Assembly: GCF_002735925.1 (NCBI RefSeq)
Contig: NZ_PEDL01000020.1
Span: 1-55,448 of the forward strand
From: Sporanaerobium hydrogeniformans
GTDB taxonomy: Bacteria; Bacillota; Clostridia; Lachnospirales; Cellulosilyticaceae
Direction: 5' to 3'
DNA length: 55,448 nucleotides
Positions 600-12,889 of this stretch are shown here, piece after piece. Below the pieces are notes generated by a model, which searched no databases, was not told the DNA's origin, and saw only the letters and a program-made list of their open reading frames with translations. Position numbers and translations under genes: made by a program. Every line of letters starts with the position of its first letter. Positions within the stretch are counted from its first letter, which is position 1.

Positions 600-619
600 T
601 GTAACGTTTATGTCACATA
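600..619 (+). promoter_or_regulatory. Direct-repeat operator copy 1 (upstream of amidase)
   Basis: TGTAAC at 600-605 and TGTCAC at 611-616 lie 11 bp apart in direct repeat, as expected for tandem half-sites of an OmpR/PhoB-type regulator. Matching copies sit at 2588, 5019 and 5115. It lies 100 bp before the amidase start. Assignment to the regulator at 2831-3529 is inference. Confidence 0.5.
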
Positions 620-719
620 ACCCCATTATTATTTCAGTTGTCATTAAATGATCAAACAAAGAAAAATGATTTTAGCACAACTTTAAAATAAAAATATATA
701 AATAGGGTGGGAATTTAAT

Positions 720-1418
720 ATGCGATTACAAAAATTAAATAAAAAAGAAATATGCCTGATAGTAACGCTATTAGGTATTACCTTGATGGTAGGTTCTATT
801 AAGATACACGGAAAGTCAAATGAAAATATAAACAAAAGTATAAACAATGCATCCAATAACAGCGTTAGTAGTCTATTAGACGGAAAAACAATTGTAATTG
901 ACCCAGGACATGGAGGAAGTGATGCAGGAGCAGCACGTGAAGGGATTACTGAAAAGGATATTAATCTATCAATTGCATTAAAAGTTCAGCAGCTACTACA
1001 GGAAAAAGGTGTTAACGTGGTGATGACAAGAGTAAATGATACAAAGGTATCGTTGGAAACAAGAGTACAGATGAGTAATGATAGCAAAGCAGATTTATTT
1101 GTATCAATCCATCAAAATGCACTAGAGGATCATGTAACCTATGGTATTGAAACATGGTTTGAAAAGACTAGTCCAGAAAGTAAGAAATTAGCTGAAGTAG
1201 TGCAATCAAGCGTTTCAGAATCAACAAATGGAAAAGATAGAGGAACAAAATCTAGACATTCCTTATATGTGCTTCAAAATACAAAGGCACCGGCTGTTTT
1301 AGTAGAATGTGGTTTCATTAGCAGCGATGCTGAGAGAAGTCTACTACAAGATGATACGTATCAGGATGCCATTGCAGAAGGTATTGTAAAAGGAATCGAG
1401 AAGTATTTTTTAGTATAG
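720..1418 (+). CDS. N-acetylmuramoyl-L-alanine amidase (CwlD-like, Amidase_3)
   Basis: Predicted zinc amidase that cuts the bond between muramic acid and the peptide stem of peptidoglycan, outside the membrane. One N-terminal membrane anchor (about residues 12-27) and a polar linker precede the Amidase_3 domain (57-230). The expected residues are present: H64 in DPGHGG, E78 in GITEKD, H131 in SIHQNA and E196 in VECGF. At 232 aa it has the length of CwlD, with no cell-wall binding domain. The start follows a GGGTGGG ribosome site. Its upstream operator-like repeat links it to the two-component system downstream. It could equally be a general remodelling enzyme rather than a spore cortex enzyme. 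Confidence 0.85.
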   Translation: MRLQKLNKKEICLIVTLLGITLMVGSIKIHGKSNENINKSINNASNNSVSSLLDGKTIVIDPGHGGSDAGAAREGITEKDINLSIALKVQQLLQEKGVNVVMTRVNDTKVSLETRVQMSNDSKADLFVSIHQNALEDHVTYGIETWFEKTSPESKKLAEVVQSSVSESTNGKDRGTKSRHSLYVLQNTKAPAVLVECGFISSDAERSLLQDDTYQDAIAEGIVKGIEKYFLV

Positions 1419-1672
1419 TACATGAAAAGACATAAGTAAAAGGTTAAGGATTATATTTTGAGTAGAAAGTAAGGTAATAGTTAATGAAAAACATGCAACT
1501 AGTAGCAGTAGTAAGTTATCTGTATATCAAAGGTAGTATTCACCGAAATCAGAAGCATGTAGCTACATTATTTAATGAGATAAGTGAAATGAAAAGCAAG
1601 GTTTTATCTTTAAGGCAATGACAGAAGAAACACCATTAGTACAGTTTAAATAAAAAGGGAAAGAATAATAAT

Positions 1673-2536
1673 ATGAAAACACGTAGTAGAGGAAAAAGAA
1701 TAGGTCTTATTTTAGTGGCTATCACCCTACTATTTTTTAGCTATATGACTTGGATTGAGAGATCCTTGTTAATCAATAAGAACATTTCTGTTTCAGTTAA
1801 GGGTGATGGAAACCATAAGCTTCGTATTGTCCAGTTTTCAGATACTCATATAGGAGATTTTTTTGAGGTAGAGCAACTAAAAAAGGTAGTTGATAAAATT
1901 AATAAACAGTCACCAGACCTTGTATTTTTCACAGGGGATTTATTTGATATTATGGAGGAATACGAGAAAATAGATGGTGTCATGATGAGGCATGAGAAGC
2001 TTGATGAAGTGATGATGGAATTAAGTAAAATAGAAGCCACTATGGGAAAATTTGCTGTTATGGGGAATAGAGATTACCAAAGAGGAGTAGATTTTTTTAA
2101 AGAAAAGATGGCAATGGGTGGATTTACCATTTTAGAAGATGAGTCTGTTCAGTTATCTTATGAAGGTGAAACGATTTCTATTTTTGGATTAAGTGGACTT
2201 ATGATGGATTATTCCAAAGCTAATAAAACAGTTGGAGAAATAAATGAAGACCATATTAATTTATTGCTCATGCATGAACCAGATTTAATGAATGCGTGCA
2301 TCTCATATCCTATCGACTTAGCGTTTGCAGGGCATAGTCATGGGGGACAGGTCTTAGTGCCATTCGTAGGACCTATCATAACGACTAATTACTGTGAAGA
2401 TTATTTTAAAGGGAAATATACTTTAGAAAATGCAAGAAACACAACTTTCTACGTAAGTTCTGGTATAGGTAATACAAAGGTGCCATTTCGTCTAGGTAAT
2501 ATCCCTGAAATAGTCACTTTTGATATTGCCTTTTAA
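1673..2536 (+). CDS. Membrane-anchored metallophosphoesterase (YkuE-like)
   Basis: Calcineurin-like phosphoesterase tethered by an N-terminal membrane helix (about 9-26), so the catalytic domain probably faces outside. Metal motifs are visible: D57 and H59 in SDTH, D89 in GDLFD, N132, H201 in MHEP, and H221/H223 in GHSHGG. The usual GNH(D/E) motif reads GNRD at 132-134, so the catalytic histidine is arginine while the metal-binding asparagine is kept. An insert near 93-118 is rich in Met and Glu. Related proteins act on phosphodiesters or wall-linked phospholipids; the substrate is unknown. It lies 254 bp after the amidase and may be transcribed separately. Confidence 0.8.
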   Translation: MKTRSRGKRIGLILVAITLLFFSYMTWIERSLLINKNISVSVKGDGNHKLRIVQFSDTHIGDFFEVEQLKKVVDKINKQSPDLVFFTGDLFDIMEEYEKIDGVMMRHEKLDEVMMELSKIEATMGKFAVMGNRDYQRGVDFFKEKMAMGGFTILEDESVQLSYEGETISIFGLSGLMMDYSKANKTVGEINEDHINLLLMHEPDLMNACISYPIDLAFAGHSHGGQVLVPFVGPIITTNYCEDYFKGKYTLENARNTTFYVSSGIGNTKVPFRLGNIPEIVTFDIAF

Positions 2537-2587
2537 GTCTATAAATAGCAGTAGAATAACTAAATTAGCAGAATGATAATATGATCA

Positions 2588-2608
2588 TGTAACGTTATTG
2601 TCACATAG
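2588..2608 (+). promoter_or_regulatory. Direct-repeat operator copy 2 (upstream of two-component genes)
   Basis: TGTAAC at 2588-2593 and TGTCAC at 2599-2604, 11 bp apart. It lies about 225 bp before the response regulator start. A leader stretch (2723-2748) matches 5252-5277 in front of the solute-binding protein at 21 of 26 positions, with nearly the same offset from the repeat. That suggests two paralogous promoters and autoregulation. Confidence 0.5.
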
Positions 2609-2830
2609 TACTTGTACAATATAGTTGTTGGTTAAACTTAAACCAATAAGAAAAACTGTAAAGAGGCGTCATTCTGCTAGTACATAAATAGGGAATAATG
2701 ACGAATGTAAAAAGTGTAAAGGGTGTAAAAAATAGAAGATAGTAAGGTGAAAATATAATAAAGAAAGCTTAGGATAGAAAACACTAAATGAGTAATCATA
2801 AATAGGGATAATAAGAGGAGGATTTATAGC

Positions 2831-3529
2831 ATGAAAAGGAATCTGTTGATTATAGAAGACGATATACAAATTAGAAGAATGATAAAAATGTATTTTGAAG
2901 ATGAAAACTATAATTGTTTTGAAGCAGAGAACGGAAGAATGGGGATAATGCTATTTCAGACCGAAAATATTGATCTTGTATTCCTAGATATTATGATGCC
3001 AGAGCTAGATGGTTTGCAAGTATGCCGAATAATCCGTGAAACCTCAGATGTACCCATTATTATGATTACTGCAAAGTCTCAAGAAGAAGATAAATTAAGA
3101 GGATTTGAATATGGAATAGATGAATATGTGACCAAGCCATTTAGTTTAAAAGTATTAGCTGCAAGGGCAGAGGCAATGATGAAACGTGTTAGGGGCAATG
3201 TAAGTAAGAGTAGCAGTATTTTTGAGATGGGCGAGTTAAAAGTCAATAAAGAAACTAGCCAGGTGCAAATTGGAAATGAGCCTATTTATCTAACGAAAAA
3301 AGAATATGATTTGCTGATACTATTAATTGAAAATGAAGGCATTGTCCTATCAAAACAACAGATTTTAGATAAGGTTTGGGGATATGAGTATGAAGGAGAT
3401 CCTAGAACAGTAGATACACATATAAGAAGATTAAGAGACAAATTAAAAGAGTATCAAGGACTAATAAAAACATTTAGAGGAAGAGGCTACAGTTTAGAAA
3501 ATAAGTGGCCACTAGAAAATCATGAGTAG
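2831..3529 (+). CDS. OmpR/PhoB-family response regulator
   Basis: Two-domain DNA-binding regulator. The receiver (about 4-118) has the acidic pair ED at 9-10, phospho-acceptor D53 in LDIMMPELDG and the switch lysine in TKPF. A winged-helix Trans_reg_C domain follows (about 132-225), ending in a typical RTVDTHIRRLR ... TFRGRGY wing. The start is set by GAGGAGG 9 nt upstream. It overlaps the kinase gene by 8 nt, so the two are cotranslated and surely partners. The 11-bp direct repeats in front of this gene, the amidase and the transporter operon have the spacing this family binds. Confidence 0.92.
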   Translation: MKRNLLIIEDDIQIRRMIKMYFEDENYNCFEAENGRMGIMLFQTENIDLVFLDIMMPELDGLQVCRIIRETSDVPIIMITAKSQEEDKLRGFEYGIDEYVTKPFSLKVLAARAEAMMKRVRGNVSKSSSIFEMGELKVNKETSQVQIGNEPIYLTKKEYDLLILLIENEGIVLSKQQILDKVWGYEYEGDPRTVDTHIRRLRDKLKEYQGLIKTFRGRGYSLENKWPLENHE

Positions 3530-5015
3530 AGAAAGAAAAAAACTATTTCATGGCAAAATTACACTCAAATTATCTCTATTAATTTCTACCATGTTTGTGA
3601 TTTTATTAGGAATTATTATAGCAGCACAGTTCTTGTACTTTAATAGGGTGTATTTGACTACAGAGTATACAAAACAAAAAGAAAAGAAACTAAGTGATCA
3701 AGGTAGGGATTTTTTTATTGATCATGGAATAGACTTGGTCAATAGTAATCAAAACAACATGTTAGATGCATTAAATAAATATTCAAGTAAAAACAGTGTA
3801 TACAGTATGTTAGTAGGAAACGATGGAGAAGTTATTTGTAGGGGAAGTACTATAGATGAGTTAAAACCAGGGTATATTGAGGATATTCAAAAACAAATTA
3901 GAGGGCTTGTGTTTGAAGATGATATTTCAAAAAGCTTTCGAATTAACACGAGGTATGGCTTACCAACACGTTATATCGCAGTTGTATATGGGAGAGAGTT
4001 CTATCCTTTGAAACCTATATATCTTGTTTCTATTATTAAGGAAGTCTACACAAGTGAGAATTACTTATTATTGACGAAGTTTAGTTTATATCTTTTACTT
4101 TTGGTTTTAGTATTAGGTGTTATTGCCGCCTATGTGTTTTCGTACTATATTACAAAACCAGTACTTGAGATTATGGATAGTGCTTCTCGTATAGCCAAGC
4201 TAGACTTTTCAAAGAAGTGTGAGTATAAGAAAAGTGATGAGTTAGGTGTACTGGCACAGAACTTAAATGATATGTCGGATATACTAGATACGACTATTAC
4301 ACAATTAGAGAAGGCCAATGAAAGATTAGAGGAAGATATAAACTTGCAAAAAGCATTTGTTGCCGATGTATCCCATGAATTTAAGACACCTTTAACCATT
4401 ATTAGAGGATTTATAGAAATCCTATTAGATAAGAAGGTAGATAAAGCAGTACAAGAGGACATGCTAAATACCATAACCAATGAAGTAGATCGCATGGATA
4501 AATTAGTGTATGATTTGTTGAAGTTATCAAAACTTGAATCCCAAGGAGCTTTAATGTGCAAGAAAAGCATTGATTGTACTGAGATGTTAGAGAATGTGGC
4601 AAGTGGGTATAAGGTGCTCATGCAAAATAAAGGCATTGTATTTTTACAGGAATATGATTCACAAATAGGCAATATGATGGCCGATCAATATAGCATAGAA
4701 CAAGTCATACGTAATTTTATTTCAAATGCAATGACACATACACAACCACAAAAGAAAGTTATTCTTTCAGCTAAGCATCATAACGGGTATGTTAGAATTG
4801 CTGTGTTTAATGAGGGTCAGCCCATTGAAGCGGTGGAATTAGATAAAATTTGGAATAAATTCTACCGAATAGATAAAGCAAGAAGTAGGGAAACGGGAGG
4901 AACAGGATTAGGATTATCCATATGTAAAAGAATTTTAGAATTACATGGATATCATTATGGCGTGATGAATGTAGATAATGGTGTTGTCTTCTACTTTGAT
5001 GCAGAGATTATATAA
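3522..5015 (+). CDS. Sensor histidine kinase, partner of the OmpR-type regulator
   Basis: Membrane sensor kinase. TM1 (about 16-40) and TM2 (about 178-206) enclose an extracellular sensing region of about 135 residues that I cannot assign. HAMP linker (about 207-260), HisKA with phospho-acceptor H285 in VSHEFKTP, then HATPase_c with N-box RNFISNA and G-box GTGLGLSI. It overlaps the regulator gene. Gene order (amidase and phosphoesterase upstream, transporter and adaptor operon downstream) suggests an envelope or extracellular-solute signal, which is inference. Confidence 0.92.
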   Translation: MSRERKKLFHGKITLKLSLLISTMFVILLGIIIAAQFLYFNRVYLTTEYTKQKEKKLSDQGRDFFIDHGIDLVNSNQNNMLDALNKYSSKNSVYSMLVGNDGEVICRGSTIDELKPGYIEDIQKQIRGLVFEDDISKSFRINTRYGLPTRYIAVVYGREFYPLKPIYLVSIIKEVYTSENYLLLTKFSLYLLLLVLVLGVIAAYVFSYYITKPVLEIMDSASRIAKLDFSKKCEYKKSDELGVLAQNLNDMSDILDTTITQLEKANERLEEDINLQKAFVADVSHEFKTPLTIIRGFIEILLDKKVDKAVQEDMLNTITNEVDRMDKLVYDLLKLSKLESQGALMCKKSIDCTEMLENVASGYKVLMQNKGIVFLQEYDSQIGNMMADQYSIEQVIRNFISNAMTHTQPQKKVILSAKHHNGYVRIAVFNEGQPIEAVELDKIWNKFYRIDKARSRETGGTGLGLSICKRILELHGYHYGVMNVDNGVVFYFDAEII

Positions 5016-5018
5016 AAA

Positions 5019-5040
5019 TGTAATATTAATGTCACGGAGC
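5019..5040 (+). promoter_or_regulatory. Direct-repeat operator copy 3
   Basis: TGTAAT at 5019-5024 and TGTCAC at 5030-5035, 11 bp apart, starting 4 bp after the kinase stop codon. It is the most divergent of the four and directly abuts a terminator hairpin. Confidence 0.45.
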
Positions 5041-5085
5041 ATGGGTATCATTTGATGAGTTATTAAATGATACCCATGCTTTTTT
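5039..5085 (+). terminator. Terminator of the two-component operon
   Basis: A perfect 15-bp stem (5039-5053 with 5065-5079), 11-nt loop, then a T6 tail. It separates kinase transcription from the solute-binding protein operon. Confidence 0.85.
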
Positions 5086-5114
5086 GTGTACCATTTTTTA
5101 AGAGAATTTAAAAA

Positions 5115-5136
5115 TGTAACATTAATGTCACATAGC
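5115..5136 (+). promoter_or_regulatory. Direct-repeat operator copy 4
   Basis: TGTAAC at 5115-5120 and TGTCAC at 5126-5131, 11 bp apart and 225 bp before the solute-binding protein start, about the same distance as copy 2 from its gene. Confidence 0.5.
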
Positions 5137-5339
5137 ACAGGTATGATTAAGCCTGTCATAAATGATAGTCATACTTTGTTTGTAAACATGTTTAAAATAG
5201 GATGGCTATTCCGTGCATAATGGATAAAAAAAAGTAGTATAAGCGTATAAAGTGTAAGAAATAGAGCGTTGTAAGGTAATAGATTTAGAATCTAGAAAAT
5301 GATGTTTCGTTAAAATAAAAATAAGTTAGGAGAGATAAA

Positions 5340-7505
5340 ATGAATAGACATTTATATAGAGTTTTAGCAGGAGTTATGATAGGCGTAAGTGCAGTATCCA
5401 TGACAGCTTGTAGAGGAAGCAAAAGTGAAAGTAACGTAGGAGGTATAAGCGCACCTAATAATCAGGAAGTGGTAATGGGTAAATATGTAGAAAAAGCCAT
5501 AGAGCTTCCAAAAGATATGGTATCTATGGTTAAGTGTATAAACAATGCAGATGGAGCGATGACAGTTTATGGTTATAATAAGTCAAATAAGTTTTCAGTT
5601 TACACTTCTCAAAATGGGGAAACATGGACTGAAAGTAAAACAGCATGGGCTGACAAAGTAGGAAATCAACTTATTCAAGATATTATAGAAGATCAAGATG
5701 GTACAGTGTATCTATCTTTCGTAGGTGGAAACGATGGCCAAGGAGAAACGCGTATTAAAAAGGCAAAAGCAGATGGTACAGTAGAAGATATCAAGATTCA
5801 AGATAACCTAGAGATTATTTTACAGATGGAGGCTTTACCAAATGGGGACATTGTAGTAGCAACTTATGAAAGTGTTACAAGGTATAGTGGTGTAGATGGT
5901 AAAAGACTTGTAGAATATGGTGGTCAATATGGTTTTACAGTAATAGGAGATAAGATAGCAGTATTAGATGGTACTGGCAGTAGCGTTGTATTCTGTAACC
6001 TTGAAACTGGAAAAGAAGAGGAAGTATTAGCATATCAAGGGTTAGATATGGGTAATAAGATTATTTCAGATGAAGAAGGTAATGTTTATCTTGTTAATCA
6101 TTCAGGTATTAATAAATGGGTTAAGGAGAGCGAAACTTGGGAAACGATTGTAGAAGCAAGTAATAATGCATTTGGAGACCCAGTTTTAATGATAACTGCA
6201 GCTAGTATTGATCAAGAAGGATTTAATATCACATTTCAAGATATGTCAGGTAAAGCACAAGTATTTAAATATACTTATGACCCTAATATGCCAAACCGTG
6301 CAACAACAGAACTCACTTTATATATGCTAGAGGATGATGAGCTAGTGAGAAAGGCTATCGTAGAATATCAACGTCAAAATCCAGAAGTTGCCATCAATAT
6401 TCAACTAGGACTAGGTAATGATGAGACAGGTGTTGTTAAAGAAGATGCCATTCGTACCTTAAATACAGAATTACTAGCAGGTAAAGGACCGGATATTATT
6501 CTCTTAGATGGACTGCCAATAGAATCTTATATAGAGAAAGGTGTTCTATTAGATATGAATGATATCATAGCACCAATGTTAGATAGTAAAGAATTACTTA
6601 CTAATGTTGTAAAACCTTATTATGAAGAGGATAAGATTTATGGGGTGCCAACAAGGTTTACAGTACCACTCATGTGGGGAGATGAAGCATTATTAAAAGA
6701 AGCGAGTTCTGTAGAAGAATTAGCACAGTGGGCAGAAGCAAACCCAGATAAGGAAGTACTATATAGCACATCACCACAAAGATTAATAGAGGAGTTTTAT
6801 GGCGTGAGTGCTATGAATTGGTTGGATGAAAATGGACAAATCAAACCTGAAGAGTTTAAGACATTCTTAGAAGCCATTAATACCTTAGCAGATCAAGAGG
6901 CAAAAAGTAATTTAACGCCAATGGAAGAATCAGATATGAATTATTATGCTAGAGAGTATATGGCCTATGGAGACACCATGTTAGCTACTCAAGATATGCA
7001 AGGATTTAGTTGGTTAAATAACTATTATTCTGCAATTACTCAAAGAACAAATGGAGACTACAAGCCATTACAGGTTAACAGGCAAGGTGTTTTCCGTGGA
7101 AAAGGAGTAATTGGTATTAATAAGAATAGTAAAAACTTAGAAGTAGCTAAAGAAATTGTAAAAATAGCATTGGGAGAAGAAGTACAAAAAACCGAGTTAT
7201 TTGAGAATGGCTTCGTAGTCAATACAAAGGCCTTTGAAAATCAAAAAAATGAAGGAATTAAAGGAACAGTAATTGCGGGGCAAACAACACCAGAGGAAAG
7301 ACCAATTAAATACCTACAAGCAGGAAAAGAGGAATATGAAAAAATGGCTCAAGTACTGCAAAGTGTCACACAACCAGCTTACGAAGATGAAATATTGCTT
7401 GAAATGATAATAGAAGAGACAAAGGGGTACTTCGATGGAACTAAGACTGCAGAAGAAGCAACGCAAGCAGTTGCACAAAGAACCAAAGCATATCTCTCAG
7501 AATAA
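5340..7505 (+). CDS. Two-part solute-binding lipoprotein of a CUT1 importer
   Basis: Lipoprotein with lipobox ending at C24 (SMTAC). At 721 aa it is far longer than the usual 400-450. The N-terminal half (about 45-325) is beta-rich with repeating units such as SQNGETWTES, DQDGTVYLSF and DEEGNVYLVN, resembling blades of a sialidase- or NHL-like propeller. The C-terminal half (about 330-721) is a family 1 sugar-binding fold (LTLYMLEDDELVRKAI, GKGPDIILLDG). It probably delivers an oligosaccharide or peptidoglycan-derived ligand to the permeases encoded next; the ligand is unknown. The start follows AGGAGA by 6 nt. The permease gene begins inside its 3' end. Confidence 0.82.
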   Translation: MNRHLYRVLAGVMIGVSAVSMTACRGSKSESNVGGISAPNNQEVVMGKYVEKAIELPKDMVSMVKCINNADGAMTVYGYNKSNKFSVYTSQNGETWTESKTAWADKVGNQLIQDIIEDQDGTVYLSFVGGNDGQGETRIKKAKADGTVEDIKIQDNLEIILQMEALPNGDIVVATYESVTRYSGVDGKRLVEYGGQYGFTVIGDKIAVLDGTGSSVVFCNLETGKEEEVLAYQGLDMGNKIISDEEGNVYLVNHSGINKWVKESETWETIVEASNNAFGDPVLMITAASIDQEGFNITFQDMSGKAQVFKYTYDPNMPNRATTELTLYMLEDDELVRKAIVEYQRQNPEVAINIQLGLGNDETGVVKEDAIRTLNTELLAGKGPDIILLDGLPIESYIEKGVLLDMNDIIAPMLDSKELLTNVVKPYYEEDKIYGVPTRFTVPLMWGDEALLKEASSVEELAQWAEANPDKEVLYSTSPQRLIEEFYGVSAMNWLDENGQIKPEEFKTFLEAINTLADQEAKSNLTPMEESDMNYYAREYMAYGDTMLATQDMQGFSWLNNYYSAITQRTNGDYKPLQVNRQGVFRGKGVIGINKNSKNLEVAKEIVKIALGEEVQKTELFENGFVVNTKAFENQKNEGIKGTVIAGQTTPEERPIKYLQAGKEEYEKMAQVLQSVTQPAYEDEILLEMIIEETKGYFDGTKTAEEATQAVAQRTKAYLSE

Positions 7506-8346
7506 ACCAAAGAGTGATTTAAAGATTGCATTATGTTTTATATTACCCAGTTTAATAGGAGTAGGGATTTTTATCCTTATTCCTTTTCTGGATGTTATTA
7601 GAAGATCTTTTTGTGGCGCCATGAATGGCCAGTTTGTAGGGGCCAACAATTATATTACCGTTTTTAATAATGAAGCTTTTAAATTAGCTAGTAAAAATAC
7701 GATTAAATTTATAGTGGTATGTATTCCTCTACTTATTGTGATTTCGTTGGCACTAGCGTTATTAGTTAATAGTTTAAAGAAAAAGAATGAAATTTTTAAA
7801 AGTATGTTTTTACTACCTATGGCAATTCCTGTGGCATCGGTCGTACTTTTATGGCAGGTTATATTTAATAAAAATGGACTTTTAAGCGCTGGAATTGAAA
7901 AATTAGGTATGGCACCTATCGATTGGATGAATTCTGATTGGGCATTTTGGATTTTAGTAGCAAGTTATTTGTGGCGTAATGTGGGCTATAATATGGTATT
8001 TTGGCTGGCAGGACTAACTACTTTATCTGAATCCGTAGATGAAGCAGCTATGGTGGATGGGGCAAATGGATGGCAGAGACTCACCAGGATAACACTGCCT
8101 CAGCTTATTCCTAACTTATTTACCATCACTGTACTTTCATTATTAAATTCATTTAAGGTTTTCAGAGAAGCTTATTTAATTGCAGGTCAATATCCACATG
8201 ATAGTATGTACATGTTACAGCATTTATTTAATAACTGGTTCATGTCCTTAGATATCGATAAACTTTCAGCAGCAGCAACAGTAGTAGCTAGTGTGATTTT
8301 GGTGCTTATCTTGTTCTTACAGAAAACATGGGAAAGTGAGGACTAG
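7435..8346 (+). CDS. CUT1 ABC importer permease, first subunit (MalF/UgpA-like)
   Basis: Inner-membrane subunit with six predicted helices and the EAA loop (DEAAMVDGANGWQRLTRITL) that contacts the ATPase. The start is unusual: it lies 71 bp inside the binding-protein gene, but AAAGGGG sits 7 nt upstream of this ATG and no better start follows, giving a basic N-terminal tail. Translation is probably coupled. No ATPase gene is in this operon; CUT1 systems of Firmicutes often share one MsmX/MsmK-type ATPase encoded elsewhere. Confidence 0.88.
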   Translation: MELRLQKKQRKQLHKEPKHISQNKPKSDLKIALCFILPSLIGVGIFILIPFLDVIRRSFCGAMNGQFVGANNYITVFNNEAFKLASKNTIKFIVVCIPLLIVISLALALLVNSLKKKNEIFKSMFLLPMAIPVASVVLLWQVIFNKNGLLSAGIEKLGMAPIDWMNSDWAFWILVASYLWRNVGYNMVFWLAGLTTLSESVDEAAMVDGANGWQRLTRITLPQLIPNLFTITVLSLLNSFKVFREAYLIAGQYPHDSMYMLQHLFNNWFMSLDIDKLSAAATVVASVILVLILFLQKTWESED

Positions 8347-8348
8347 GA

Positions 8349-9188
8349 ATGAAGAGAAAAGTAACATTAATAATTCTAGCAATTCTAAGTGTAGTAGCCT
8401 GGCTTCCCTTATGGTTACTGATTAGTGGGTCATTTATGCCCGTAGATGAGATTAATAGTACGCTAGGACCGGTATTAAATGAGACAGAAGGTTTTGCAAG
8501 ATGGCCACTATTTCCGCAGTATCTAGATGTGAGGCCTTATGTACAACTTTTACTAGACTCACCAGAGTTTTTCAAGATGTTTTGGAATTCTCTAGGGATG
8601 GTTATTCCTATTTTAATAGGACAACTTTTATTAGGGATGCCAGCAGCTTGGGCATTTGCAAGATTTAAGTTTTCAGGCAAAAAGATTTTATTTACTATTT
8701 ATATAGCGCTTATGTTAATGCCATTCCAAGTAACAATGGTACCTAACTATTTAGTGTTAGATAAGATGCAATTATTAAATACAAGGTGGTCAATCATCTT
8801 ACCAGCAGCTTGTTCTACATTTCCTATTTTTATTATGTATCGCTTTTTTAAAGCAATTCCAAAGGAAATGATAGAGGCGATTGCTATAGATGGTGCCGGA
8901 CCTTTTAGAACTTATATATATATAGGCTTGCCACTGGGGGCACCTGGTATTATTTCAGCTCTTGTACTAGGCTTCCTAGAGTATTGGAATATGATAGAAC
9001 AGCCACTTACCTTTATTAAAGACCAGTCATTATGGCCATTATCGTTATATTTACCTAATATTACTACAGATAATTTAGGAATAGCTATTGTGGCATCAGT
9101 GATTATGTTGATTCCAGCCATTCTTATATTCCTATGGGGTCAAACTTATCTTGAGAGCGGAATTAGTGTAGGAGGACTTAAGGAATAA
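8349..9188 (+). CDS. CUT1 ABC importer permease, second subunit (MalG/UgpE-like)
   Basis: Second permease, beginning 2 nt after the previous stop. Six helices and an EAA loop (IEAIAIDGAGPFRTYIYIGL) are visible. The region 35-75 between TM1 and TM2 is longer than usual and carries no clear motif. Together with the preceding permease and binding lipoprotein it forms a complete importer lacking only the ATPase. Confidence 0.88.
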   Translation: MKRKVTLIILAILSVVAWLPLWLLISGSFMPVDEINSTLGPVLNETEGFARWPLFPQYLDVRPYVQLLLDSPEFFKMFWNSLGMVIPILIGQLLLGMPAAWAFARFKFSGKKILFTIYIALMLMPFQVTMVPNYLVLDKMQLLNTRWSIILPAACSTFPIFIMYRFFKAIPKEMIEAIAIDGAGPFRTYIYIGLPLGAPGIISALVLGFLEYWNMIEQPLTFIKDQSLWPLSLYLPNITTDNLGIAIVASVIMLIPAILIFLWGQTYLESGISVGGLKE

Positions 9189-9207
9189 TGGGAGAAAGGA
9201 GAGCATC

Positions 9208-10998
9208 ATGCAAATAAGTGTAAAAGAGATACTAAAGAAAAAACTTCCTGAGAAAAAAGATGAAACCAGTAAACGTCAGCAGGTTGCTTTAAAAGCATTA
9301 GTAGGTTTTTTAGTGATTATGATAGCTTTAACTGCTTTGTCTAGATTTGCAGATTCTATCATCATACCTAAAGTAACCGTAACCAATGCAAAAAGTGGTC
9401 GTGTAAAGCATACGTCTGAATTTGCAGGAACAATAGTCACTAAAGAGGATGTAGAAATTGAAGCTAAAGAAGGACTAACTATTGAGGAAATCTTTGTAGA
9501 GGAAGGTCAACAAGTTAATCAAGGTGAACAGCTCATTAAGCTTGATGTGGAAGAATTAGAGAGTCAGATTAAATCAATTGAAGTAGACCTTGCGAAAATG
9601 AAGATTCAAAAGCAACAGTTGGCACTCAAAGATCCAACTAGTGGAAATAGTGACTTAGTAGCAGAAGCAAAAGCGGAAGTAGAACGCCTTAAAGAAGATA
9701 AGGCGTTTGAAATACAACAAATAGATGAAAAAATGAAACGTATGGAAGATGAAATTGTAGAAGCTAAAAAAGCATTGGAGGAGGCAGAGGCAAACTTTGA
9801 AAGTTTCATGGCAAGTAATTTAGAAAAACAGATTGCCGAGACAAAAGAAGAAGTAGAAGCTGCTAAAAAGAATGTTGAGAAACAGCAATATGAACAACAG
9901 AAAGCTTTGAGACGTGCAGAACAAGCTATAGAAGAAGTTAGAAAGCAATTATGGGTTGCAGAAGGGGACACAACTATGCTATGGGAACAGTTAAAACGTG
10001 CTCAGATGGAATATGAAATTACTAAGGAAGACTGGAAGCGCAATGTTCAAGAAGCTGAGGAGGAGCTTGCTAAGGCAGAAGAAAAGCTTAAGAAGCTTGA
10101 AAATGGAGAAGTGGACCAGTCCATATTAGACGCAGAGCAAAGCAAAATAAGTGTAGCCAAAGAGACAGTAAAATCTAAACAAAAAGAATTAGAAGATGCA
10201 CGTTATAATAAAGAACAAAGTATCGTGCGATATGATAGAAATATAGCAGATGCAGAGCAAAAAGTGATTGAAGCACAGGAAGAAAGTGCAAAAAATAGTG
10301 AACAACAATCAAAAGAAGAGTTAAATAATAGCCTAGATCAGCAATCACTAGAAGTAGATATTCGTGCTAAAGAAGATGAGCTTACGAAGCTTAAAGAGAT
10401 AAAAGAGTCTAACAGTATACTAGTAGCACCGGTATCTGGAACAGTAAATATCATTAATGTTAAAAAAGGTGAAAAAACATCTAGTGATATATTGATGACT
10501 CTACTTTCAGATGCTACTCAATATATCTTCGAAGCAGAAGTAAAGAATGAGGATATCAAGACAGTAAAAGTAGAGGATCAAGTTGAGATTATATTAGATG
10601 GTGAAAGCGATGCCATTGAAGGTGAGACCGTTATTAATCGTATAATTCATTTACGAGGAGAGAAACTGGGAAGTAGCAAAATAATGGTTAACATTAAAGA
10701 AGGTATTGCAGGAACAAATGGAAGAATGGTTATTGAAAAAGAATCTGAGCGCTATGATTATATTGTTCCAGAATCAGCCATCTATGAAGATGGTCAAGGA
10801 AAATATGTGTTAGTAGCCAAATCACAGGTAACAACTCTTGGTGAACAGATGGTGGTTGAACGAGTAGGTGTGACAGTGCTTGATAAGAATGGTGAAGTAG
10901 CAGGTATACAAGGTACTTTTAGTGGAAAAGACCAGATCATTACCAAAACTAACAAACCTATTAAAGCAGGCGATAGGGTTCGTCTGCTAGAACAATGA
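9208..10998 (+). CDS. Membrane-fusion (HlyD/RND adaptor) protein with long coiled coil
   Basis: Anchored by one helix (about 28-46). A split lipoyl-like domain (first half about 60-115 with EGLTIEEIFVEEGQQVNQGE, second half about 405-440 with APVSGTVNIINVKKGEK) encloses an exceptionally long charged coiled coil (about 115-395), followed by beta-barrel and membrane-proximal regions to 596. Such adaptors usually pair with a MacB-type or other exporter; here the neighbours are importer permeases upstream and an FtsX-like membrane protein downstream. Start set by AAAGGAG. It overlaps the next gene by 4 nt. Confidence 0.8.
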   Translation: MQISVKEILKKKLPEKKDETSKRQQVALKALVGFLVIMIALTALSRFADSIIIPKVTVTNAKSGRVKHTSEFAGTIVTKEDVEIEAKEGLTIEEIFVEEGQQVNQGEQLIKLDVEELESQIKSIEVDLAKMKIQKQQLALKDPTSGNSDLVAEAKAEVERLKEDKAFEIQQIDEKMKRMEDEIVEAKKALEEAEANFESFMASNLEKQIAETKEEVEAAKKNVEKQQYEQQKALRRAEQAIEEVRKQLWVAEGDTTMLWEQLKRAQMEYEITKEDWKRNVQEAEEELAKAEEKLKKLENGEVDQSILDAEQSKISVAKETVKSKQKELEDARYNKEQSIVRYDRNIADAEQKVIEAQEESAKNSEQQSKEELNNSLDQQSLEVDIRAKEDELTKLKEIKESNSILVAPVSGTVNIINVKKGEKTSSDILMTLLSDATQYIFEAEVKNEDIKTVKVEDQVEIILDGESDAIEGETVINRIIHLRGEKLGSSKIMVNIKEGIAGTNGRMVIEKESERYDYIVPESAIYEDGQGKYVLVAKSQVTTLGEQMVVERVGVTVLDKNGEVAGIQGTFSGKDQIITKTNKPIKAGDRVRLLEQ

Positions 10999-12212
10999 GA
11001 GGCGAGAAAAAGCGCGTAGCTATTTTTGGTGTTATAGTATTTTTAGCCTTATTTATATGGAGTATAGGTATAGCAAACGCGCAAAAAATAGAACATTTAA
11101 AAGATAGTATAGAGTTACGTTATACGAAGCCAACACTTACTTTAGAGAAGCTTACAAAAATACAAGAGAGTGAAAGTAACCATAATCAGCCACTAATCAA
11201 TCAGCTCATAGCTTGGGAACAAGTAGATGAGGTACAGATAAAAAATGAAGAACTGAATAAAAGTATAGGGGCTACCATGCTCTATGTATTTGGTGATATC
11301 AAAGAGCTTATTGGTAAAAATCAAATAGCAGGAGATTTTCCTTATCAAGGAGATGAGGAAGGCGCTCTAATTACTAGTAAAGTGGCCTATGATTTATGGG
11401 GAAACTTAGATGTAATCAATAAAACCTTTGACTACAATGGTAATAGCTATAAAGTGAGAGGGATTATAGAAGATAATGAGCCAGCTATTCTTAGGCAGCT
11501 TAGCGAAGATGTAGCAGAAGAGGTTCAGATGAGTGGGCTGAGAGTTAAGTTTATAGAGACAGAAAATATTCCCGGTGAACTAAGAAGTTTTCTACTACGT
11601 TATGAATTAGAAGATGCTATAGTAATGAATCTATCTTTAATGAGTATTTTATGGAATCAAATCATTTATATGCCTATATGGATTCTAGGCATATGGGGGA
11701 TTATAAAGCTTTTAAGGGTATTCAATAAAACCTATCGTTACTGGGTAGCTGCGATCATCTTAATGGTAATCATAAGTGTTATAGATTGGGTGATTCTAAG
11801 ATTTATGGCTATTCCACTGAATATCCCATCTTACTTGCTACCAAATCAATGGTCTGATTTTGAATTTTGGTCAACGCTTTGGAATGATTTAAAGAGTAAT
11901 TATATAGAGATAGAAAGTTTACCGAAATACCTTCCCGATATATGGAGGGGAGCAACTATAAAATGTGTTATAAGCTTTTGGCTTATAAGTAGTGGTATAA
12001 CAATCTGGGGATTAAGAAAGATTACTATACGAGATAGTAGTGAGTTATTTTGGAAAACACTTATCGCTATAGTTTCAAGTTTTATAGCTATTATGGTAGG
12101 TTATGCATTAGGGATGACGGCTATTATGCCACAAGCATTTTGGACAGCCCTGCCTATATTTATGGTAATCTACTATATAAGTGATAGGTGGATAAAAATG
12201 CTAGAAAGCTAA
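10995..12212 (+). CDS. FtsX/MacB-like polytopic membrane protein without ATPase partner
   Basis: One N-terminal helix (about 9-28), an extracellular domain (about 30-210) whose stretch EGALITSKVAYDLWG and YKVRGIIED resembles the MacB periplasmic core, then four or five helices (about 213-400). The C-terminal half does not look like a canonical FtsX domain. The ATG lies in the ATGA overlap with the adaptor gene, so coupled translation is likely. No ATP-binding gene is nearby. It is either the permease half of an adaptor-linked exporter that borrows an ATPase, or a mechanotransmission-like sensor. Function is inference. Confidence 0.6.
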   Translation: MRGEKKRVAIFGVIVFLALFIWSIGIANAQKIEHLKDSIELRYTKPTLTLEKLTKIQESESNHNQPLINQLIAWEQVDEVQIKNEELNKSIGATMLYVFGDIKELIGKNQIAGDFPYQGDEEGALITSKVAYDLWGNLDVINKTFDYNGNSYKVRGIIEDNEPAILRQLSEDVAEEVQMSGLRVKFIETENIPGELRSFLLRYELEDAIVMNLSLMSILWNQIIYMPIWILGIWGIIKLLRVFNKTYRYWVAAIILMVIISVIDWVILRFMAIPLNIPSYLLPNQWSDFEFWSTLWNDLKSNYIEIESLPKYLPDIWRGATIKCVISFWLISSGITIWGLRKITIRDSSELFWKTLIAIVSSFIAIMVGYALGMTAIMPQAFWTALPIFMVIYYISDRWIKMLES

Positions 12213-12254
12213 GATATGAATTAGATAATAATACTATATAATTAACAATTCATA

Positions 12255-12290
12255 GAGCATTATTGTTGTGACATGAAAAATGATTAAGGC
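12255..12290 (+). promoter_or_regulatory. Possible diverged fifth copy of the upstream element
   Basis: The stretch containing ATGATTAAGGCTTGTGATAA resembles ATGATTAAGCCTGTCATAA just after operator copy 4, and a TTGTGACAT stands where TGTCACAT would be. The key half-sites are altered, so this is weak evidence that the secreted-protein gene at 12380 belongs to the same regulon. Confidence 0.2.
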
Positions 12291-12379
12291 TTGTGATAAA
12301 ACAACATATATGCCTTAAACTCACATAATAATTTAATAAACTGTACAATCTAACCTTATAAATATTTGGGAGGTTGGAA

Positions 12380-12889
12380 ATGAAGAATTTTTTTATTAAA
12401 TTACTCTTATCTATTACATTATCTTTGGTTACGATCTTTAATCCTATTATGACAAATGCCAGTTCTATCAGTAGCTTGCCTAATGTTCCCTCGGCTCAAC
12501 ATAAACAGATAATTCAGGGCTTTATCGGTGAATTAAATACACTACAGAATCGAATATATAATCTTACTCAATTTTTTGGAGGAAATGAGCCTATTACATC
12601 AAGTAATTATACCGCTACTATACAATCCATTAATGAAGATCTTTCCAACTTAAATAAAAAGATTGATAGTTATTATAAAACAGTTCCCACGTTTAGTGAA
12701 GAAAATAGAGAAGTTTTACTACTTTTTAATGCATTTAATTTTTCTAAAGATGGCTTATATACTCTTAGTCTTTTGAACGATACAACTTCTACAGTAGAAA
12801 AAATTCAACTACTGGATCGATACTTTCAAGCTAGGCTGTCTGCTATTGATGCCATTAATCTTTTGAAAGATCTTTTATCGAGTTATTAA
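12380..12889 (+). CDS. Small secreted protein of unknown function
   Basis: I do not recognise it. ATG at 12380 is chosen over an upstream TTG because GGGAGG lies 6 nt before it, giving 169 aa. A signal peptide (about 1-28, ending near TNASS) precedes a mature part of about 140 residues. That part is predicted helical, with a heptad-like run (IQSINEDLSNLNKKIDSYY) and no cysteines. It stands alone, after the adaptor operon and before a HAD gene. Confidence 0.65.
   Translation: MKNFFIKLLLSITLSLVTIFNPIMTNASSISSLPNVPSAQHKQIIQGFIGELNTLQNRIYNLTQFFGGNEPITSSNYTATIQSINEDLSNLNKKIDSYYKTVPTFSEENREVLLLFNAFNFSKDGLYTLSLLNDTTSTVEKIQLLDRYFQARLSAIDAINLLKDLLSSY

Follow-up and report, generated by a model that had tools for sequence, protein, structure and literature searches.

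Response regulators of the OmpR family usually bind DNA as a homotypic tandem pair. In Escherichia coli, the pho box is described, in excerpts of PMC4971064, as usually lying near the -10 and substituting for the -35, with 7-bp repeats each followed by 4 bp; in Staphylococcus aureus, excerpts of PMC4801191 place two promoters upstream of walR in the walRKHI operon. No published CssR box was found in the excerpts of the literature searched, and a literature search on the WalR/WalK regulon in Lachnospiraceae found no paper. Here we describe four boxes of the form TGTAAC-N5-TGTCAC around a two-component system of Sporanaerobium hydrogeniformans (assembly GCF_002735925.1, contig NZ_PEDL01000020.1, positions 1 to 55,448; this 55,448-nt stretch is referred to as the window). 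All four are probably bound by the response regulator encoded among them, which would activate an amidase gene, itself, and a transporter operon; this would most likely be a local autoregulated cluster rather than a broad regulon. The study genome comprises 3.74 Mb and is 99.66% complete; the window is its contig C12, and C4 and C5 are contigs of the same genome. Compared loci carry L-numbers, L093 being the genome's own wal locus on C4 and L094 its own C5 locus.

The boxes and their promoter phasing

The boxes, and the hexamers following them, are:

600..616, + strand: box 1, TGTAACGTTTATGTCAC, ending 103 bp upstream of the amidase start; -10-like TATTAT at 627-632
2588..2604, + strand: box 2, TGTAACGTTATTGTCAC, upstream of the response-regulator gene; -10-like TACAAT at 2615-2620
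5019..5035, + strand: box 3, TGTAATATTAATGTCAC, directly 3′ of the kinase stop; -10-like TATCAT at 5046-5051
5115..5131, + strand: box 4, TGTAACATTAATGTCAC, upstream of the transporter operon; -10-like TATGAT at 5142-5147

An earlier note on this DNA had reported four copies with half-sites 11 bp apart, and these are real: TGTAAC-N5-TGTCAC is exact at 600, 2588, and 5115, the box at 5019 has TGTAAT as its first half (one mismatch), and all four consist of two direct half-sites with a period of 11 bp. The exact sequence occurs three times genome-wide, each time inside this 4.5-kb stretch of the 3.74 Mb. With up to one mismatch there are 19 matches (12 for the pattern reversed as a control), of which four are the window boxes; the remaining 15 do not rise above background. 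With up to two, in the window only, there are six, an unremarkable number (shuffles have a mean of 3.27, and 11 of 100 reach 6), so that the case for the boxes rests on their exactness, clustering, and promoter phasing. A looser box pattern gave 15 matches in the genome (one palindromic site being counted on both strands) against 12 for its reversed control. An initial scan of genome contigs gave 26 pattern matches, none of them a relative.

Exactly 10 bp 3′ of each box lies a hexamer with a 5/6 match to TATAAT. The summed -10 match is 20 of 24 at this offset, against 14 at the best other offset between 3 and 25; among 20,000 sets simulated by first-order resampling of intergenic sequence, not one scored 20 at a shared offset in this range, a statistic that overstates the evidence because the four copies share ancestry. 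Box and -10 combined, as TGTNAN-N5-TGTNAY-N10-TANNAT, match five times in the genome (reversed control, one): at the four window boxes and at C4:85111, directly after walK. The geometry fits an activator site of OmpR/PhoB type that takes the place of the -35. Across 391 further genomes of the order, TGTAAY-N5-TGTCAY-N10-TANNAT has ten matches, one each in ten genomes, against nine for the reversed control; the window-type box with its -10 is therefore no order-wide shared feature.

The earlier note had taken the boxes for OmpR/PhoB-type operators of a regulon. The operator part is strengthened by the constant gap to the -10 and, by comparison, boxes at some sister regulators (below); the wider regulon and a proposed fifth site fall away. 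In the genome motif scan, one-mismatch copies outside the window are at background, and the "weak fifth relative" near 12260 comes down to a single TGTGAC (12267-12272) that lacks a partner at 11 bp and is absent from the two-mismatch scan. A broad regulon is rejected on the genome counts outside the window and on the occurrence of box plus -10 elsewhere only after walK.

The response regulator and its neighbors

The amidase, regulator, kinase, solute-binding protein, and adaptor genes lie where the earlier note had put them. Every listed gene in the first 12.2 kb of the window is on the + strand:

720..1418, + strand: N-acetylmuramoyl-L-alanine amidase (Amidase_3), scoring below the CwlD equivalog cut-off
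1673..2536, + strand: calcineurin-like phosphoesterase, with a probable N-terminal membrane anchor (by eye)
2831..3529, + strand: OmpR/PhoB-family response regulator of a CssR-like clade (profile search, tree), the proposed reader of the boxes
3522..5015, + strand: sensor histidine kinase (HAMP, HisKA, HATPase_c)
5340..7505, + strand: large extracellular solute-binding protein (SBP_bac_1 at residues 337-617)
7435..9188, + strand: two ABC permease genes (7435-8346 and 8349-9188)
9208..10998, + strand: HlyD-type adaptor
10995..12212, + strand: 405-amino acid (aa) protein with no family match

The regulator encoded at 2831 scores below the cut-offs of the PhoB, MtrA, YycF/WalR, and other models (25 of 96 models shown): 206.5 against an equivalog cut-off of 296.2 for PhoB, 198.8 against 300 for MtrA, and 181.2 against 340 for YycF. 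In a tree of 103 regulators it belongs to a clade of nine rows (support 100/88) that includes the genome's own C5 regulator, L103-L108, and L194; within the clade, where some forks are weak, it is placed closest to L103 (85/82). WalR regulators form a separate clade in the same tree (support 100/96). The helix residues DTH(I/V) are found in the window regulator and in six of seven aligned clade regulators (DNHI in G009), and DVT(V/I) in three aligned WalRs. Judged by its sequence, regulator 2831 is not WalR, and the genome's true WalR is encoded at C4:82609. A search with the local regulator found 15 full-length OmpR-type matches in the genome.

A trypsin-PDZ protease and a PPIC/SurA-type foldase are encoded on either side of the C5 two-component system. 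The name "CssR-like" reflects this gene neighborhood, because the arrangement of protease, response regulator, histidine kinase, and foldase resembles CssRS. At the window locus, no linked htrA-like or prsA-like gene (present at C5) and no ABC ATPase was found among the ten proteins scanned (720-12,889), and the kinase has no Pfam match to a PAS domain at E 0.001.

The nearest named homologues of the window permease are from Niameybacter massiliensis and a Cellulosilyticum sp. Eighty of 143 transporter loci found were kept, and 69 of these hold a homologue of the solute-binding protein. Within 4.5 kb in these 69, the nearest response regulator is of a Niameybacter type in 52 and nearer to the window regulator in three; there is none in 14. 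Another clade of the tree, of 55 regulators, comes from transporter loci. Since most such loci carry a Niameybacter-type regulator, the pairing of the window's transporter operon with a CssR-like one looks like a regulator swap. A TGTNAH-type box scan of the relatives' transporter loci L089-L092, which carry another type of regulator, found none.

Boxes at related regulators

When 11-bp direct repeats followed by a -10 were sought blind to sequence, boxes were identified upstream of the response-regulator genes of L094 (own C5), L107, and L108, and 3′ of the kinase gene in L094 and, with a poorer -10, in L107. In the C5 system, of the same clade and in the same genome, the boxes hold the same positions with respect to the surrounding genes as in the window system. 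In all, L094 (C5:76000-92000) has three 11-bp-phased boxes: one 5′ of the protease gene (weak), one 5′ of the regulator gene, and one 3′ of the kinase gene. The two-component systems of L107 and L108, which have CACAT-type boxes before the regulator gene, are followed by HlyD-like, MacB-like permease, and ABC ATPase genes (by eye).

A strict half-site pair, in a pattern derived from these same clade loci, occurs six times in their 104 kb (once, in L105, far from the response-regulator gene), against three times in 1.78 Mb of other loci; the reversed pattern gave 0 and 15, respectively. In a prospective test on 29 new C5-type loci, found with the C5 regulator, a strict 7-mer pair (W[CA]AC[AG]TW twice) matched in one. 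The core TCACA-N9-TANNNT, refined after seeing the data of this test, is found within 250 nt upstream of the response-regulator gene in 15 of 30 loci (14 of the 29 new ones and C5), against 0-5 matches for each other spacing from 4 to 15. Eleven bp before the core, at letters not asked for by the pattern, there is T in 14 of 15, C in 15 of 15, and A in 15 of 15.

In the window, TCACA with TANNNT nine bases on is found in the second half of three of the four boxes (TCACG at 5019), and the window second half-site TGTCACAT occurs at the corresponding place in L288, L301, and L304. The first half has AA in all four window boxes, against CA in all 15 CssR-type boxes.

WalR-type boxes

The box at C4:85111 (L093:9112-9144), directly after walK of the genome's own WalRK system, provides a yardstick. 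It precedes genes for a 180-aa secreted-looking protein, a 458-aa protein in the YycH position, and a protein resembling YycI; the last scores 28.1 bits with the YycI profile (cut-off 29.7), and the first two are without a Pfam match. TGTAAY-N5-TGTAAY-N10-TATAAT is found in 124 of 392 genomes of the order, with no match seen in the reversed-control columns. A subset of these matches was inspected (L224-L253, L307-L346, and a set of 21 sites). The box lies at most 100 nt after walK in 28 of the first 30 loci; 23 of 40 further sites are after walK, and 13 of the other 17 precede a similar small secreted-protein gene (by eye); in the set of 21, which includes genomes with several matches, walK is upstream in eight. 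The small secreted protein next to WalR-type promoters has about 150 aa.

In the window's family, a loose box follows walK in 10 of the 14 loci with sequence there (own genome counted). Ten boxes after walK that were found with a pattern open at the fourth base of either half have A there in both halves, while the second half of the window boxes has C in four of four; TGTWAH fits the first half of all four window boxes and the second half of none. The consensus TGTWAH-N5-TGTWAH alone is uninformative (41 matches, 42 reversed).

These positions suggest that WalR drives a conserved internal promoter, or a feedback loop, after walK. Such a promoter would bear on the view that wal operons lack autoregulation; its novelty is not claimed here. 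The same genome also has, in L099 (C4:22465, 24933, and 27516, - strand), three tandem paralogous genes for secreted proteins of about 720-750 aa, with WalR-consensus matches 115-155 bp upstream of each gene, on the opposite strand.

Duplicated DNA and hairpins

Three further elements accompany the boxes:

2711..2750, + strand: leader element, common to 5240-5279 and 463-502 (73% and 75% to the 463 copy)
5005..5196, + strand: tandem duplication of about 96 bp with boxes 3 and 4 (identity 81% and 71% in two matched parts)
5036..5082, + strand: strong hairpin, terminator-like, at which the regulator-kinase transcript would end (folding energy of 5030-5090, -31.4 kcal/mol; z -8.5)

Since one half of the tandem duplication holds box 3 and the other box 4, these two are not independent. 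The leader copy at 2711 begins 123 bp after the start of box 2, and the copy at 5240 begins 125 bp after the start of box 4; elsewhere in the genome, besides itself, the box 2 leader has two weak matches only (E 0.07). Copying of promoter and leader DNA within the locus is probably how the boxes spread. Box 3 may be inactive, because its -10 falls inside the terminator-like stem.

Conserved 5′ hairpins after the boxes were considered and rejected: of the four stretches folded, only the terminator (5030-5090) clearly beats its shuffles. A short way 5′ of box 1, at 506-548, two perfectly inverted 21-bp arms flank a single nucleotide; this repeat is terminator-like on the minus strand. The contig end (1-200) has a long imperfect inverted repeat, GCAAGTAAGGGAGCTCTTC and its complement (by eye), without an Rfam match; an Rfam search of the window found nothing at the gathering score.

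Possible readers of the boxes

As operators of response regulator 2831, the boxes could work as follows. The phosphorylated regulator would bind each as a tandem pair, on half-sites TGTAACRTT and TGTCACATA one helical turn apart, and the bound pair would stand in for the -35, recruiting RNA polymerase to the -10 located 10 bp on. The amidase gene would be activated from box 1; the regulator-kinase operon would activate itself, giving positive feedback; and the operon for the solute-binding protein, permeases, and HlyD-type adaptor would be activated from box 4 and perhaps box 3 too. Binding, phosphorylation, activation rather than repression, and an envelope-stress signal are what we infer here. 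The local regulator is the economical reading; the C5 system carries boxes at matching places.

Several observations weigh against this reading. No box was seen near the response-regulator genes of L103, the nearest relative, or of L104, L105, and L106. Half of the C5-type loci (15 of 30) are without the core upstream of the response-regulator gene, including, contrary to expectation, all eight of the closest same-family C5 orthologues (L278-L285, 71-78% identity); elsewhere in the stretches fetched, L278 has a core about 1.46 kb upstream of the regulator start, L279 has two downstream, and L287 and L303 each have one further upstream. The first half-site has TAA in the window, against TCA (14) or ACA (1) in the 15 CssR-type boxes, and so is nearer to that of WalR. 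The window sites are four copies of common descent, and the genomes searched did not yield a second one from this genus.

The WalR encoded at C4:82609 might instead bind the boxes, which would make the local two-component system part of the WalR regulon. The first half-site, TGTAAC, is a WalR half-site; the box after walK has the same 11-bp and 10-bp geometry; and in other Firmicutes WalR has wall hydrolase genes among its prominent targets, according to excerpts of PMC9210968. We nevertheless think this quite unlikely, given a second half of TGTCAC in all four window boxes, against A at that place in 10 of 10 boxes after walK, and the occurrence of C there in boxes of some sister regulators. 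As each half resembles the half-site of one regulator, both might read the box, WalR the first half and the CssR-like regulator the second, or the two in competition; set against the usual homotypic pair, this too seems unlikely. A related idea, likewise unlikely, is that the boxes are composite operators, with a WalR-type and a CssR-type half-site on the same 17 bp; through them the essential regulator of wall homeostasis and a regulator of secretion or envelope stress would jointly set expression of amidase, sensor, and transporter. The envelope two-component systems of the order would then have their own codes on one promoter frame, and a base change in a half-site could rewire which sensor commands the transporter operon.

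With 15 full-length OmpR-type proteins in the genome, a third regulator could be the reader, either of the direct repeat or of the near-palindrome TGTNAC-N6-GTNACA that is also present; both fit, because GTNAC, the half-site, reads the same as its reverse complement. The box at 5019, however, has only an incomplete dyad, CssR-type boxes are direct repeats without one, and it is regulator 2831 that the boxes surround, making a third regulator very improbable. Finally, the duplication containing boxes 3 and 4, and the leader DNA common to boxes 2 and 4, could mean that local DNA duplication left the copies behind passively and that they have no regulatory role. This has hardly any probability in our view: the 48-nt stretches around boxes 2, 3, and 4 are only 65-81% identical, yet box and -10 are still in register in all four.

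Comparison with known systems

Control by regulator 2831 would make this an ordinary kind of local circuit; what is new is its DNA code. The window box resembles the WalR box in its 11-bp direct repeat, its first half-site, its 10-bp gap to the -10, and a wall hydrolase gene as neighbor, but its second half, TGTCAC, breaks the WalR consensus, and the adjacent regulator is not WalR. With CssR-type operators it shares a regulator of the same clade, a TCACA second half in three of four boxes, and placement before the regulator and after the kinase, as on C5; it differs from them in a first half with TAA rather than TCA, and in having amidase and transporter genes as neighbors instead of protease and foldase. 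By its letters, then, the window box is WalR-like in its first half and CssR-like in its second.

Direct repeats with an 11-bp period, in E. coli usually replacing the -35 near the -10, are also found in the Pho box, whose core, TGTCA, is similar; the window regulator is, however, below the PhoB equivalog cut-off, and there is no phosphate gene among the ten proteins scanned. MtrA sites have GTNAC-like half-sites, but MtrA is actinobacterial, and here too the window regulator falls below the equivalog cut-off.

The boxes offer a concrete, testable code for a regulator without a named function, and a single switch would tie wall cutting, sensing, and transport together. Three box types in one genome (window, CssR-like, and WalR) have a common promoter frame with different half-site letters, and such a genome is a good setting for asking how paralogous regulators keep insulated.

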